DNA of 64,000 nt. It comes from Pseudoramibacter alactolyticus ATCC 23263. Its GTDB lineage: Bacteria > Bacillota > Clostridia > Eubacteriales > Eubacteriaceae. The stretch lies in assembly GCF_000185505.1 (NCBI RefSeq), contig NZ_GL622359.1, positions 585,308 to 649,307 of the forward strand, read 5' to 3'. The first letter of the stretch is position 1. Every line of letters starts with the position of its first letter. The notes beneath the pieces are model-generated. The model saw only the letters and a list, made by a program, of their open reading frames with translations. It was not told the DNA's origin and did not search any database. This document shows, piece after piece, positions 8,652 to 43,073 of the stretch. Position numbers and translations under genes: made by a program.

Positions 8652-9194
8652 TCAGTACGCCTGATTGGAGATCGAAACGTTTCGGTCATCCCACAAAACC
8701 ACCTTCTGCTTTTGTCGAGAATTTTTAACGTCAATGATCCGCTGATTGGCACTGCCGCGGTACAATAAAGTAATGTCCTTTTGTTCTTGCATAAAACGAC
8801 CATCCACCAGCACATCCGTCAAGTCAAGGATCGCCTGTGTCGTTTCGGACGGATCCGTTGATAGCACCTCATAGGTAAACCCAGTGTAAATCCACAAATC
8901 CATCCGGGGGAAGACTTGTTTAAAACGCCTCAGAAAAGGAAGCAACGCTCGTTGATTCTCCGGTTCCATCGGCTCCCCGCCCAGCAACGTCAGGCCACGA
9001 TAGCAAGGTTCCCGGAGATCGGATAAAATCTTTTCATAAACCGGCTTCGAAAAGACTTCTCCGTAATTAAAATCCCAAGCCACTTGATTGAAACAACCCG
9101 GACATGCGTGACGACAGCCCGACACAAACAAGCTCAAACGAATGCCCGGGCCATTGGCAATATCATGCTCATGAATCGAAGCGTAATGCATCAT
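8652..9194 (-). CDS. nrdG: Anaerobic ribonucleoside-triphosphate reductase activating protein NrdG
   Basis: A radical-SAM activase of about 180 residues that installs the glycyl radical on NrdD. The CxxxCxxC motif is CRHACPGC, preceded by NGPGIRLSLFVSGC, and LLGGEPM follows. The start at 9194 is favoured because AGGA lies 7 nt upstream; a longer frame to 9221 lacks a site. It follows nrdD by about 40 nt, forming the standard operon. It works only under anoxia because of its 4Fe-4S cluster. Confidence 0.96.
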   Translation of the reverse strand: MMHYASIHEHDIANGPGIRLSLFVSGCRHACPGCFNQVAWDFNYGEVFSKPVYEKILSDLREPCYRGLTLLGGEPMEPENQRALLPFLRRFKQVFPRMDLWIYTGFTYEVLSTDPSETTQAILDLTDVLVDGRFMQEQKDITLLYRGSANQRIIDVKNSRQKQKVVLWDDRNVSISNQAY

Positions 9195-9236: not shown

Positions 9237-11414
9237 TTACAAATGCAGCACGCGTTCCTTAATCTCCTGCGTTCGTCCCTGATTAAAGCCCGTCGCACCA
9301 CCGAGATAACCGCAAACACGCCGCACCACTGACATTTTATTTAATTCGCGATTGCCGCAATTAGGGCATTCCCAGATAAGTTTACCGGCTTCGTTTTCCA
9401 CAGCTTTAATTTCACCATCGTAGCCACACACTTCGCAAAAGTCACTCTTCGTGTTTAATTCAGCATAGGTAATATGATTGTAAATATGCTTCATCACTTC
9501 CAAAACTGCCGGAATGTTATTCTGCATGTTCGGCACCTCCACGTAGGAGATAGCGCCTCCCGGCGACAAACGCTGAAAATCCGCTTCAAACGTTAATTTG
9601 CTGAAAGCGTCAATGGGTTCTGTCACATGGACATGATAAGAATTGGTGATGTAGTTTTTATCCGTCACCCCTTCGATGATTCCAAATCGTTTTTGCAAAC
9701 ACTTGGCAAATTTATAGGTCGTTGATTCCATCGGCGTCCCATAAACCGAATAGGCAATGTTTTCTTCTGCCCGCCACTCTTGACATTTATCATTCAACTT
9801 TTGCATCACGGCCAATGCGAAGTTTTTCGCTTGATCGTCCGTGTGCGATTTACCCGTCATATAACGACACATTTCATACAACCCGGCATATCCCAAGGAA
9901 ATCGTGCTGTAACCACCATAAAGCAGTGCATCAATCGTTTCTCCCGACTTTAGTCGCGCCAACGCACCATGCTGCCATAAAATCGGCGCCACATCAGAAG
10001 GCGTTCCCAAAAGCCGTTCGTGACGGCAGCGCAAAGCTTTGTGACAAAGTTCCAGCCTTTCGTCTAAGATCTCCCAGAATTGGGCCATATCCCCGCCGGA
10101 TGAACACGCTACATCCACCAAATTAACCGTCACCACGCCTTGATTGAAGCGACCGTAAAATTTGTGGCTGCCATCTGAATTGCGCTGTGAATCTTCCACC
10201 GTTAAAAAACTGCGACATCCCATGCAGGTATAGACATTGCCTTGTTTGAGTTGTTTCATGATTTTAGCCGAAATATAGTCCGGCACCATGCGTTTGGCCG
10301 TGCATCGCGCCGCCAAATCGGTCAAATACCAATACGGGGCTGATTCGTAAATATTGTCTTCATCCAGCACATAAATCAACTTGGGGAATGTCGGTGTAAC
10401 CCAGACATCCTGTTCATTTTTAACGCCTGTGATGCGCTGATTGAGCACTTCTTCAATGATAAGGGCCAGATCCTTACGCACCTGCCCGTCCGGCACTTCA
10501 TCCAAATACATAAACATTGTAACAAACGGCGCCTGCCCATTACAGGTCATCAATGTGATCAATTGGTACTGAATGGTTTGAATACCGCTTTTAATTTCTT
10601 CTTTTAAGCGTGCAAAAACGATTTTTTCGATAATTTCACGATTCATAACTTCACCGCAGAGCCTGCGTTCTTCAATCACTTGCTGACGGATTTTTTGCCG
10701 GCTCACGTCGACAAATGGCGCCAGATGTGAAAGTGTAAAGGATTGCCCACCATATTGGTTGGACGCTACCTGCGCTACAATCTGCGTAGTAATATTGCAT
10801 GCGGTATAAAAACTATGAGGTTTATCAATCTTCGTGCCGGAAATAACCGTCCCATTTTGCAGCATATCTTCCAGGTTGATCAAATCGCAGTTATGCTCGC
10901 GCATGGCAAAATAATCAGCGTCGTGAAAATGGATAATCCCTTCTTCGTGGGCTTTCACCACATCTTCCGGCAAGAAAAGCCGTTTGGATAAATCCTTGCT
11001 GACTTCCCCGGCGATATAGTCCCGCTGCGTAGAATTAATTGTGGGATTTTTATTGGCATTCTCCTGTTTGACCAATTCATTTTCACGATTAATCAACGCT
11101 AAAATTTTGCGATCTGTTGTATTTGACCGGCGGAGGGCCGTCCGCTTATCCCGGTAATGCATATACGCCTGGGCCACCTCATACCCACGCATTTCCATAA
11201 TGCCCGTTTCGACCAAATCCTGAATATCTTCAACACCGGCCGCATGCTGATAGGCAGAAATTTGTTTTTCCACATTGTCAGCTACCGCCTGAATTTGGGC
11301 CGCATTTAACTGACGAATGGGTTTCACTTCTGCATTGGCTTTCGTAATCGCGTTAACGATTTTATCGATATTGAATAAAACTTCTTCGCCGTTTCGCTTA
11401 ATCACATTCTTCAT
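9237..11414 (-). CDS. nrdD: Anaerobic (class III) ribonucleoside-triphosphate reductase NrdD
   Basis: A 725-residue glycyl-radical enzyme reducing ribonucleoside triphosphates to dNTPs without oxygen. An N-terminal ATP-cone (about 1-90, VIKRNGEEVLFNIDKI) provides allosteric control. The C-terminal zinc site has CEVCGY and CPNCGN, and the glycyl-radical motif RVCGYLG puts the radical on Gly702. The ATG at 11414 has GGAG 9 nt upstream; an upstream extension to 11456 is unlikely. Upstream are a consensus-like promoter and two NrdR-box sequences. A class II enzyme (nrdJ) lies about 29 kb away. Confidence 0.97.
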   Translation of the reverse strand: MKNVIKRNGEEVLFNIDKIVNAITKANAEVKPIRQLNAAQIQAVADNVEKQISAYQHAAGVEDIQDLVETGIMEMRGYEVAQAYMHYRDKRTALRRSNTTDRKILALINRENELVKQENANKNPTINSTQRDYIAGEVSKDLSKRLFLPEDVVKAHEEGIIHFHDADYFAMREHNCDLINLEDMLQNGTVISGTKIDKPHSFYTACNITTQIVAQVASNQYGGQSFTLSHLAPFVDVSRQKIRQQVIEERRLCGEVMNREIIEKIVFARLKEEIKSGIQTIQYQLITLMTCNGQAPFVTMFMYLDEVPDGQVRKDLALIIEEVLNQRITGVKNEQDVWVTPTFPKLIYVLDEDNIYESAPYWYLTDLAARCTAKRMVPDYISAKIMKQLKQGNVYTCMGCRSFLTVEDSQRNSDGSHKFYGRFNQGVVTVNLVDVACSSGGDMAQFWEILDERLELCHKALRCRHERLLGTPSDVAPILWQHGALARLKSGETIDALLYGGYSTISLGYAGLYEMCRYMTGKSHTDDQAKNFALAVMQKLNDKCQEWRAEENIAYSVYGTPMESTTYKFAKCLQKRFGIIEGVTDKNYITNSYHVHVTEPIDAFSKLTFEADFQRLSPGGAISYVEVPNMQNNIPAVLEVMKHIYNHITYAELNTKSDFCEVCGYDGEIKAVENEAGKLIWECPNCGNRELNKMSVVRRVCGYLGGATGFNQGRTQEIKERVLHL

Positions 11415-11461
11415 GAAAATTCTCCATCTTTTCATTTTCTCCAAAGTTTGGGACAAGTGTT

Positions 11462-11490
11462 ATTATACGCCCGCCATGATTGAGATTCAA
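11462..11490 (-). promoter_or_regulatory. Sigma-A promoter of nrdDG
   Basis: Minus-strand -35 TTGAAT (11485-11490), a 17-nt spacer and a perfect -10 TATAAT (11462-11467), about 48 nt before nrdD. Confidence 0.75.
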
Positions 11491-11506
11491 GTAAAATCGA
11501 AACTGA

Positions 11507-11522
11507 ACTCTATATTTTGTGT
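11507..11522. promoter_or_regulatory. NrdR box 1 upstream of nrdD
   Basis: ACTCTATATTTTGTGT matches the 16-bp NrdR consensus (acaCwAtATaTwGtgt) at 14 of 16 positions, including all six most conserved ones. It lies 16 bp upstream of the nrdD -35. NrdR is a zinc-finger/ATP-cone repressor of ribonucleotide reductase genes; its gene is not in the window. Confidence 0.7.
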
Positions 11523-11537
11523 TTGTAGATTTGAAAA

Positions 11538-11553
11538 CATCAATATTTGGGGC
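11538..11553. promoter_or_regulatory. NrdR box 2 upstream of nrdD
   Basis: A weaker copy centred on CAATATTTGG keeps all six strongly conserved NrdR positions but has divergent flanks (9 of 16 overall). It starts 31 bp from box 1, about three helical turns, which is the spacing known for paired NrdR boxes; that supports it despite the low flank match. Confidence 0.5.
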
Positions 11554-11663
11554 TTATTTTCTCGAAGCAAAGATGACATAATTGTCATTTTATATTCTTC
11601 CGAAGTTATTAAGCAGATTCAATTGTTTTTTACTAACAAAAAAAGCCACTTACCAGCGGCTCA

Positions 11664-12167
11664 TTATAACGATAATATCGATCGATATGCATCGATCAAA
11701 TCCTCCAGGTGCATTTTGGCATTGGCCGGACTGGTGGACGGGAGCCCCAAATGCGACAGTCTACTGATCTGTGGATTTAAGCCCCAATGCTCTCGGAATA
11801 ATTTTGTCGCTTTTCCCCCGGTAGTAACAATTCCCCGAATGGAAGTTTGTGATACGATCGTCGTCAAATCATTGTAATGTACATTTTTGATAGATGCATC
11901 CGATGCCCCTCGAATATCACAACTGCCAATCACATCCCACAATGCCAGTGAATGTTTTTTGAGAAATAACTGTTTCTGCTCGATACTCTCCGGTATCGTT
12001 TCCTGATAAACACCGGCCAACGTTTTCCAAAAGCGATTGCGCGGATGACCATAATAAAATCCGGCTTCCCGCGATTTGGGAGATGGCAAAGAACCTAAGA
12101 TTAAAATCTGTGAGTGCGCATCGTAAAAAGGAACCAACGTGTGCTCAATATGTTCATACGCGGCCAT
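11664..12167 (-). CDS. DNA-deoxyinosine glycosylase-like protein (uracil-DNA glycosylase superfamily)
   Basis: A 167-residue protein of the UDG superfamily. ILILGSLPSPKSREAGFYYGHPRNRFWKTL (read in two pieces, ILILGSLPS and YYGHPRNRFW) carries the N-terminal catalytic region of the deoxyinosine-glycosylase branch. ALWDVIGSCDIRGASDASI and LPSTSPANA complete the usual motifs, the last being the minor-groove loop. Enzymes of this branch excise hypoxanthine and related deaminated bases. The ATG at 12167 has AAGGTGG upstream and overlaps the preceding gene by 14 nt; longer starts read through that gene. Substrate preference is inferred from the family. Confidence 0.78.
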   Translation of the reverse strand: MAAYEHIEHTLVPFYDAHSQILILGSLPSPKSREAGFYYGHPRNRFWKTLAGVYQETIPESIEQKQLFLKKHSLALWDVIGSCDIRGASDASIKNVHYNDLTTIVSQTSIRGIVTTGGKATKLFREHWGLNPQISRLSHLGLPSTSPANAKMHLEDLIDAYRSILSL

Positions 12168-31667: not shown

Positions 31668-31674
31668 AAATCTT

Positions 31675-31720
31675 CAAAATAGAGATCTCGAGAACTTTCG
31701 AGATCTCTATTTTGTTTTTT
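31675..31720 (+). terminator. Strong terminator after the parvulin gene
   Basis: A 17-bp perfect stem (31675-31691 with 31698-31714) with a 6-nt loop and six T. It may also serve the convergent helicase gene. Confidence 0.9.
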
Positions 31721-40007: not shown

Positions 40008-42962
40008 TCAACTGCAGCCGGTGGTCGTTCCGCAATCCAGACAAACCTTGCACGTCCCGTTGCGAACCAAGCGGTCAGAGCCGCAACTTGAACAGATTTC
40101 ACCGTACACATGCTCCAGTGATTCATCATCCAAATCAATCGGTGCTTCCGCAATCTGCGCCACCTGCGCCATTTCGATTTGGTGCGGCTGGCTTTCGGAG
40201 CGCTTATAATGATGCGCCGGCTTCACCTGGCAGCGGGAATAATCCCCGCATTCGATGTCAATAATTTTCGAGATCAAATCCGATATCGAACTCGCATTTT
40301 TGATATACGGATGGCGAGACACGAACCCCGAAGGCTCATACTTCTGGCCGCGGAGCATCGTCGCGATATCCTGAGGCGAAATGCCGTATTGCAACATGTG
40401 CGAAATCGATTTGGATAACGAAGCCAATAATCCTTTGATCACCGTGCCCTCCCGATCGGTCGAAACAAAAAGTTCCGAAATGCGATCGTCATCATAAAAC
40501 GAAATGGTAATATAAAGCTCGATGTCGCCAATTTTGGCTGTATGCGTGCGGCTGTTGCGAATGCCCCGCGGCTTTCTACGCTCCGGCACGCCGATTTCCC
40601 GCTGCTTGGCATAAGCAAGCAGTTCCTGATAGGTCAGGTCTTCAAGGTCGCGGTCACCCTGGCTGTCACTGCCGCTCGACAGCGGCTGTGCCGCCTTGCA
40701 GCCGTCGCGGTAGGTGGCAATCGCCTTGGCGCCGGTGCGGTATGCCAGCAAATGGATATCGGCAATATCCTGCACCGTGGCCGCATTGGGCAGATTGACC
40801 GTTTTGCTTACCGAGCCAGAAATCATCGGTGTGATAGAACTGACCATCAGCACATGGCCTTCCGGGCGGATGGTATTAGCCGTGTCAAAAATCGGCAGAT
40901 GCTCTTTTTTAATATGCGGAGCATCTTCAAGCCCCTGGTGCAACGTCATGCCGTTTTCATCCTTTTCGAGCATGTAGGCCATGACGTCTTGAATCTGGGG
41001 CTTAGTATAACCCAAATTTTTCAACGCCATTTCCATCACCGGATTGACGATTTCAATCGATCCGCCGCCAACCAACTTCTTAAAAACCACATGGCTGTAA
41101 AAGGGTTCGATGGATGTCGCACCACAGTCCATCGCAAAGGAAATGGTCCCCGTCGGGGCAATCACAGACACCTGCGCATTGCGATACCCATAGACTTCGC
41201 CATAGTCAAGAGCTTCCTGCCAGGCATCCTTGATGCGCATCGACAGATTTTTAAAGCCCATGCGCTTTAAAATCGGGTGATCAATAATATAAGGATCGTA
41301 ATCCAATCCCTCAAAAGCATCGGTCAAGGTACCGGCAATTCGGGCATGATTGCGCATCACCCGCATCATATAGGGCTCGTTGATCTTGTAACATTCAAAG
41401 GCCCCGACTTTGCTCGCCATCAGTGCCGAAACAAAATAGGAATGGCCGGTCATCAGTCCGGCAAGAGCCGCCGTCAGATTGCGCGCTTCATCTGAATCGT
41501 AGGGATAGCCCAACGCCAGAATCAAAGAAGCGGTGTTGGCAATGCCAAGCCCCGTCGTCCGAAATTTATAACTCTTCTCCGCCACGTCTTCTGTGGGAAA
41601 CTGCCCCCAATAAATGGAAGCTTCCAAAACCAACTGAATGAGTCCTGCCAAATGGCTGAAGCGTTCGATGTCAATCTTTTTCGTTTTTGGATCAAAAAAG
41701 CGAAAAATATTAATAGATGCAAGATTGCATGCCGTATCGTCGAGAAAAGCGTATTCCGAGCAGGGATTCGTCGCGTTGATACGGTTGTGCTTCGCCCCGA
41801 CGTCTCCGTCTTCCCCCGCCGGACAGGTGTGCCAATTATTAAAGATGTTGTCAAACTGAAGTCCGGGATCTGCACATGCCCAAGCCGCTTCATTGATTTC
41901 ATCCCACAATTTGCTCACTTTGATTTTACGATCGACCTTGTGATCTTTTCGGCCCGTCAAGGTGATTGTGGCTTCCGGATCTTCATCCAAATGCATCACT
42001 TTATCCATAAATTCACGGTCAACACGTACCGAATTATTCGCATTTTGACCGGCAACCGTCTGGTAGGCTTCGCCATCCATGCCCATGTCGTAGCCCATTT
42101 TCCCCAGTGCGCGCACTTTTTCTTCTTCTTTGACTTTCCAATTGATGTAATCTTCAATCTCTGGGTGATCAACATCAACGATCACCATCTTTGCCGCGCG
42201 GCGGGTTGTTCCGCCGGATTTGATCGCGCCAGCATTCCGATCGAGCCCTTGCAGAAAGCTCATCATCCCGGAGGATTTCCCTCCGGAAGACAAAGCTTCA
42301 TTTTCTCCCCGCAGGGGTGAAAAATTCGTGCCGACACCGGAGCCGCCTTTAAATAATTTCGTTTCTGAAACGTAATGGTCCGATATGGAACGATGTCCCA
42401 AAAGCTGATCCTTGATCGACAGAATAAAACACGCCGATGCCTGCGTTCTTGTGTAACGATCTCGAGATTCTACCACTTTTTTCAAGGCCGGATCATAATA
42501 ATAAAGGGCATCCGATTCCGCACCGATGTGATAATTGCGTTCAATGCCGGTGTTAAACCACTGGGGTGAATTAGGCGCCCACATTTGTGCCAACAATGCA
42601 AAAACCAGTTCATCGTAAAATGTCTGCCATTGATCGTTCGTCTCGATCAAGCCTTCTTCTTTAAGCGCATCCGCCCAAAATCCCACCATGCGATCCGTGA
42701 CCTGGCGCATCGAATATTCATAACCGCGTCCGGGTACACCACTTTTACGAAAATATTTACTGGCAATGATGTTGCAGGCGTTTTGAGAATAATTGGCTGG
42801 AAACTCCAAATCATTCATTTCCAACAGGGTTTCCCCCGTTCGATAATTGGTCATCACCACGTCAACCGTTTGCCATTCAAACAAGTCGTAAACCGTTTTG
42901 GTGCCATTCGCCAAATCACCTGTAAAATGACGCATAAATAAATCCGAAATTTGTTTCACCAT
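40008..42962 (-). CDS. nrdJ: Adenosylcobalamin-dependent (class II) ribonucleotide reductase NrdJ
   Basis: A 984-residue B12-dependent reductase making dNDPs or dNTPs with or without oxygen. Class II features include PNSPQWFNTG, FSPLRGENEALSSGGKSSG (in parts), the active-site NPCSEYAFLDDTACNLASINI segment and APTGTISFAMDCGATSIEPF. The C-terminus ends in a zinc-ribbon with CSSCGSD and CKVCLDCG plus a final Cys-Ser tail for thioredoxin-type reduction. No B12 riboswitch is visible in the 274-nt upstream gap, but an NrdR box overlaps the -35. It coexists with nrdDG. Confidence 0.97.
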   Translation of the reverse strand: MVKQISDLFMRHFTGDLANGTKTVYDLFEWQTVDVVMTNYRTGETLLEMNDLEFPANYSQNACNIIASKYFRKSGVPGRGYEYSMRQVTDRMVGFWADALKEEGLIETNDQWQTFYDELVFALLAQMWAPNSPQWFNTGIERNYHIGAESDALYYYDPALKKVVESRDRYTRTQASACFILSIKDQLLGHRSISDHYVSETKLFKGGSGVGTNFSPLRGENEALSSGGKSSGMMSFLQGLDRNAGAIKSGGTTRRAAKMVIVDVDHPEIEDYINWKVKEEEKVRALGKMGYDMGMDGEAYQTVAGQNANNSVRVDREFMDKVMHLDEDPEATITLTGRKDHKVDRKIKVSKLWDEINEAAWACADPGLQFDNIFNNWHTCPAGEDGDVGAKHNRINATNPCSEYAFLDDTACNLASINIFRFFDPKTKKIDIERFSHLAGLIQLVLEASIYWGQFPTEDVAEKSYKFRTTGLGIANTASLILALGYPYDSDEARNLTAALAGLMTGHSYFVSALMASKVGAFECYKINEPYMMRVMRNHARIAGTLTDAFEGLDYDPYIIDHPILKRMGFKNLSMRIKDAWQEALDYGEVYGYRNAQVSVIAPTGTISFAMDCGATSIEPFYSHVVFKKLVGGGSIEIVNPVMEMALKNLGYTKPQIQDVMAYMLEKDENGMTLHQGLEDAPHIKKEHLPIFDTANTIRPEGHVLMVSSITPMISGSVSKTVNLPNAATVQDIADIHLLAYRTGAKAIATYRDGCKAAQPLSSGSDSQGDRDLEDLTYQELLAYAKQREIGVPERRKPRGIRNSRTHTAKIGDIELYITISFYDDDRISELFVSTDREGTVIKGLLASLSKSISHMLQYGISPQDIATMLRGQKYEPSGFVSRHPYIKNASSISDLISKIIDIECGDYSRCQVKPAHHYKRSESQPHQIEMAQVAQIAEAPIDLDDESLEHVYGEICSSCGSDRLVRNGTCKVCLDCGTTTGCS

Positions 42963-43035: not shown

Positions 43036-43063
43036 ATTGTATATTTCAGTTTATAAAACACAA
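43036..43063 (-). promoter_or_regulatory. Promoter of nrdJ
   Basis: Minus-strand -35 TTGTGT (43058-43063, weak), 16-nt spacer, -10 TACAAT (43036-43041, 5/6). The NrdR box covers the -35. Confidence 0.55.
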
Positions 43064-43073
43064 TATCTTGTTG
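43058..43073. promoter_or_regulatory. NrdR box at the nrdJ promoter
   Basis: ACACAATATCTTGTTG matches the NrdR consensus at 13 of 16 positions with all six core positions kept. No good second box is found 31-32 bp away on either side. Confidence 0.6.

Follow-up and report, generated by a model that had tools for sequence, protein, structure and literature searches.

A predicted NrdR operator upstream of the -35 hexamer of nrdDG in Pseudoramibacter alactolyticus

The repressor NrdR, as described in excerpts of PMC9110341 and PMC12051234, forms a tetramer with dATP and ATP that occupies two DNA boxes separated by about three helical turns, and it kinks each box by about 90 degrees; with ATP alone, binding is absent or far weaker. 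According to excerpts of PMC12051234, these boxes carry paired C.A.AT.T.G cores and are spaced by whole helical turns (about 31-32 or 41-42 bp), with a usual gap of 15-16 bp between them. They generally overlap the RNA polymerase site, as stated in part of PMC12176259.

Our literature search on Pseudoramibacter and ribonucleotide reductase found no paper. Here, we analyzed a 64,000-nucleotide stretch of P. alactolyticus DNA (the window, 64 kb) in which a pair of such boxes precedes nrdDG. Judged from sequence comparisons, this pair is very probably an NrdR operator at which NrdR would bind and repress nrdDG. It combines the core, integer-turn spacing and RNR-operon position of an NrdR operator with a cognate NrdR in the genome and conservation in relatives.

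Layout of the boxes, the promoter and the flanking genes

The gene for the class III anaerobic ribonucleoside-triphosphate reductase, nrdD, lies at 9237-11414 on the minus strand and matches the profiles NF006732 (905.5 bits; cut-off, 657) and TIGR02487 (464.3 bits; cut-off, 326.35). Its start codon is uncertain, with an in-frame alternative start further upstream. On its 3' side is the activating enzyme gene nrdG (8652-9194, minus strand; TIGR02491, 177.5 bits against a cut-off of 126.1), and the gene on its 5' side belongs to the deoxyinosine glycosylase family by an above-cut-off profile match. After the glycosylase gene, a terminator scan placed a hairpin followed by a T run at 11643-11662 on the minus strand, which would insulate nrdD from transcription arriving from upstream. 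Two terminator-like sites were found in 11400-11700, compared with a shuffle mean of 0.1.

NrdR boxes follow the consensus acaCwAtATaTwGtgt. The sequence-only reading had proposed two 16-bp boxes with starts 31 bp apart, one a 14/16 match and the other with a full core, and we confirmed both on the minus strand. The promoter-proximal predicted box (box B; 11522-11507, minus strand) reads ACACAAAATATAGAGT, with the core CAAAATATAG, and matches the consensus at 14 of 16 positions. The promoter-distal predicted box (box A; 11553-11538, minus strand) reads GCCCCAAATATTGATG, with the core CCAAATATTG; it matches at 9 of 16 positions and keeps all six core bases. The core C.A.AT.T.G is thus intact in both. 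A start-to-start distance of 31 bp leaves a gap of 15 bp, three turns, so that the spacing agrees, as had been claimed, with that of known NrdR operators (15-16 bp, in the relevant excerpt of PMC12051234).

Downstream of the boxes, a promoter scan and alignment identified a -35 hexamer, TTGAAT (11490-11485, minus strand), and a -10 hexamer, TATAAT (11467-11462, minus strand), separated by a 17-bp spacer. This promoter, also part of the sequence-only reading, was the best minus-strand candidate of the intergenic region, scoring 14.4 compared with 8.5 for the runner-up and with 7.8 and 7.7 for the best minus-strand candidates under the boxes. Box B ends 16 bp before the -35, and neither box touches the -35 or the -10. 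The nrdDG start site would lie near 11455, which would put box B between about -67 and -52 (centre near -60) and box A between about -98 and -83. In a consensus scan, the region held 3 promoter-like sites against 1.5 expected. On the plus strand, a consensus match, TTGAAA-18-TATTTT (9/12), runs across the boxes at 11531-11560.

The sequence-only reading had named a lack of nrdR as evidence against it; the genome encodes a single nrdR gene, whose product scores 200.9 bits against TIGR00244 (cut-off, 124.65). In an alignment with solved NrdR chains, the protein retains D15, R17, R26-R29 and R37, and at position 12 it has K instead of R, as does the solved chain 9fvr_A. DNA-contact roles of these residues are described in an excerpt of PMC9110341. 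Judged from the translations as read, nrdR belongs to a row of genes that includes ftsZ-like and NUDIX-like ones.

Statistical standing and conservation of the box pair

We scored box pairs with a matrix built from 52 pairs at other nrdD loci, excluding the window's own locus; the matrix is partly circular, since the training pairs were picked by the same six-base core. The nrdD pair was the top pair of the window at spacings of 30-33 bp, with a score of 27.3, and the next independent pair, at nrdJ, reached 11.9. In 3,000 dinucleotide shuffles, the 249-bp intergenic region never reached a pair score of 27.2 (maximum, 15.8) and never contained a double-core pair at 30-33 bp. The two boxes contribute unequally. 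As a single box, box B scored 17.5, second in the window behind the nrdJ box, and on the box-2 matrix it scored 15.2, close to that set's median of 15.6; box A scored 6.7 on the box-1 matrix, under the 5th percentile of the training boxes (11.6).

The claim that such a pair is unlikely by chance held within the intergenic region, as the shuffles show, but not for the double-core pattern taken genome-wide. Searching spacings of 31 and 32 bp, we found three exact double-core pairs at 31 and one at 32; a simple estimate from the density of cores in the window gives about 0.11 pairs per spacing, fewer than the genome contains. When up to one mismatch was allowed, the pattern and its reversed control gave 4 and 2 pairs at 31 bp and 2 and 2 at 32 bp in this genome, and 3 and 4, 3 and 4, 2 and 3, and 6 and 5 at 32 bp in four congeners. 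The double-core pattern alone is not selective, and the case is carried by position before nrdD together with conservation.

Several exact pairs elsewhere in the genome were considered as NrdR targets and set aside. A 31-bp pair in a CRISPR leader (L121, 3077-3117) was not accepted and is probably due to chance; at L121 2900-3117 (G000:C1 near 1495576), a CRISPR-like repeat array lies beside cas-like genes, with the pair situated between array and genes, going by the repeats and translations as read. A 31-bp pair upstream of an aldehyde dehydrogenase gene (L122/L143; L122 2966-3006), whose double core touches a TTGACA, had no counterpart upstream of the best matches in the congeners G002, G003 and G004; the G001 match was a fragment and was excluded from this comparison. 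A 32-bp pair (L142, 3168-3209) in a phage-like repressor region, judged from translations as read, was likewise not accepted. It sits where a small HTH repressor-like gene begins, and its pair score of 29.9 exceeds the 27.3 of the nrdD pair.

The window also encodes a class II RNR, nrdJ (40008-42962), the sole PF02867 match in the genome. An NrdR-like box upstream of it (43058-43073, minus strand) is the strongest single box of the 64 kb (18.2); it has no exact-core partner at 30-33 bp, and its best pair is the one scoring 11.9. A promoter-like pair, TTTACA-17-TAAGAT (43116-43088), lies upstream of this box. In the 5-kb stretches upstream of nrdJ in three congeners, pair scores never exceeded 5 and single-box scores never exceeded 11; in G004, about 60 bp upstream of nrdJ fell between the scanned stretches. 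Separately, a pair scan found a long perfect inverted repeat at 31672-31717, consisting of CAAAATAGAGATCTCGA, a 6-base loop and TCGAGATCTCTATTTTG.

We compared the nrdD operator region with those of four congener genomes: G001, G002, G003 (P. porci, also locus L050) and G004. All four have a box pair before nrdD, at a spacing of 32 bp instead of the 31 bp seen here. Both cores are exact in G002 and G004, and one core base is missing from box 2 in G001 and P. porci. Box 1, the spacer and the promoter align with those of the window: in the five-sequence alignment the TTGAAT of the window corresponds to TTGATT in all four congeners (TTGATT-17-TATAAT), and TATAAT is invariant. Counted from the box start, box A with its flank agrees with box 1 in P. 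porci and G001 at 23 of 33 bases, more than at any other ungapped offset in the intergenic region (next best, 18); with G002 and G004 the match is 18 of 33, and other offsets are just as good.

The placement of the promoter differs. Box 2 overlaps the -35 in 4/4 congeners, whereas the -35 of the window is clear of it. The distance from the box 1 core to the -35 measures 39 bp in all four congeners; in the window it is 60 bp, longer by 21 bp, or two turns, and the alignment places the extra bases between the 5' part of box 2 and the -35. Because this distance is 21 bp longer in the present lineage, box 2 no longer covers the -35. The displacement is most likely a lineage-specific shift.

Beyond the genus, we surveyed 90 regions upstream of nrdD (80 from genome contigs and 10 from whole genomes, window included). 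The contig loci were the 80 top-scoring among at least 590 matches, and the whole-genome loci were the 10 nearest (L082-L091), the more distant L092-L111 being excluded. Regions extended up to 400 bp; 5 of the 90 were shorter (minimum, 129 bp). An exact core pair at 30-33 bp was present in 49 of the 90 regions, which are not independent, as they come from related species and L050 and L086 represent one genome; 2 more had a pair solely at 40-43 bp, and 39 had neither. First-order Markov resampling (200 sets) gave 0.015 loci per set with a pair at 30-33 bp. With core mismatches allowed, 75 of the 90 regions reached a matrix pair score of at least 20. Together with the counterparts in all four congeners, the 49 exact pairs support the NrdR reading first made from the sequence alone.

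The survey also bears on the position of the boxes relative to the promoter. Promoter scores came from a simple purpose-written matrix that is uncalibrated against mapped start sites. At a promoter score of at least 8, reached in 54 of these 75 regions, the -35 lay wholly downstream of box 2 in 10, overlapped it in 6 and lay upstream in 38. At a score of at least 12 (28 regions), it lay wholly downstream in 7 (the window and loci L063, L066, L067, L073, L076 and L087), overlapped in 6 and lay upstream in 15. Boxes wholly upstream of the -35 are predicted at six other loci and reported for Streptococcus pneumoniae nrdHEF (PMC12051234), so that the placement is uncommon, not new. That the boxes stand upstream of the -35, as the sequence-only reading had remarked, is real, but it is less unusual than was implied, since parallels exist.

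Competing explanations

Several observations count against an operator at this site. Box A is a weak match, the double-core pattern is about as common genome-wide as its reversed control, and 41 of the 90 surveyed loci are without an exact-core pair at 30-33 bp. The overlap with the -35 and -10 that usually underlies repression is absent here, and NrdR has K in place of R at contact position 12. One explanation is that the operator is weakened or a relic, the 21-bp change having distanced the promoter, such that NrdR may bind and yet hardly repress nrdDG. The clearance between box B and the -35 fits this account, as does the weakness of box A, which falls in the lowest part of the box-1 training range. 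We nevertheless consider it unlikely. Both cores are intact at 31 bp, and they are more complete here than in P. porci and G001, where box 2 is short of a core base despite overlapping the -35; moreover, a change of 21 bp would leave the boxes on the same helical face.

The pair might instead be an AT-rich palindromic site for another regulator, its NrdR-like core being incidental. The genome does encode four clear Crp/Fnr-type HTH proteins, along with weaker partial matches. This explanation appears extremely unlikely, as nrdD loci repeatedly show C.A.AT.T.G cores paired at 31-32 bp, in the manner described for NrdR in an excerpt of PMC12051234, and the Fnr-type pattern TTGAT-N4-ATCAA was not found at nrdD with up to one mismatch. 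Across the window that pattern had 10 matches at this tolerance, compared with 6.3 expected, and 7 of 100 shuffles had as many, a count that does not exceed chance. Chance resemblance, finally, draws some support from the exact pairs elsewhere in the genome, two at 31 bp and one at 32 bp, from the reversed control being about equally frequent with one mismatch, and from the aldehyde dehydrogenase pair, whose absence in three congeners with upstream DNA suggests that chance pairs do occur. It is hardly credible for the nrdD pair: four exact pairs (31 and 32 bp) in 2.36 Mb translate into odds of about 4 in 10,000 for this 249-bp region, the shuffles never produced such a pair and the congeners have counterparts.

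Mode of control and comparison with known operators

If the pair is an NrdR operator, as we favor, its control of nrdDG could proceed as follows. When dATP is plentiful, NrdR carrying dATP and ATP would form its tetramer, and two Zn-ribbon pairs of the tetramer would hold boxes A and B across their spacing of three helical turns. The sharp bend produced just upstream of the -35 would hinder RNA polymerase, probably at contacts between its alpha subunit and upstream DNA, and nrdDG expression would fall; we infer this as the polymerase step that is blocked. Once dATP drops, NrdR would let go and nrdDG would be transcribed. With the boxes at about -98 to -52, repression would thus work through distorted upstream DNA, not through occlusion of the -35.

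Many class I activators bind near -60 of the start site. Because the pair lies wholly upstream of the -35, with box B centred near -60, NrdR could conceivably modulate nrdDG other than by promoter occlusion, even as a dual regulator, although we regard this as very unlikely. Were it true, the genus would offer a natural set of similar promoters in which an NrdR operator is displaced by exactly two helical turns. In any case, the two distances between box 1 and the -35, 39 and 60 bp, provide a clean natural comparison with which to ask whether repression by NrdR requires it to cover the promoter. For Pseudoramibacter, the analysis indicates NrdR control of the anaerobic ribonucleotide reductase; otherwise it is routine annotation.

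Among described operators, as far as the excerpts of PMC12051234 and PMC12176259 go, those of nrdDG in Listeria monocytogenes and Escherichia coli are alike in having two boxes before a class III RNR operon, with gaps of 16 bp and 15 bp, respectively. The L. monocytogenes boxes overlap the RNA polymerase site, whereas both boxes here lie at least 16 bp upstream of the -35. The nrdHEF operon of Streptococcus pneumoniae, in an excerpt of PMC12051234, encodes a class Ib rather than a class III RNR, and its boxes are separated by 26 bp (four turns between centres) instead of 15 bp (three turns); as at the present locus, however, box 2 precedes both its -35 and its -10. The pair upstream of nrdDG is most likely a standard dATP/ATP-NrdR repressor site, an ordinary new case of a known operator type.
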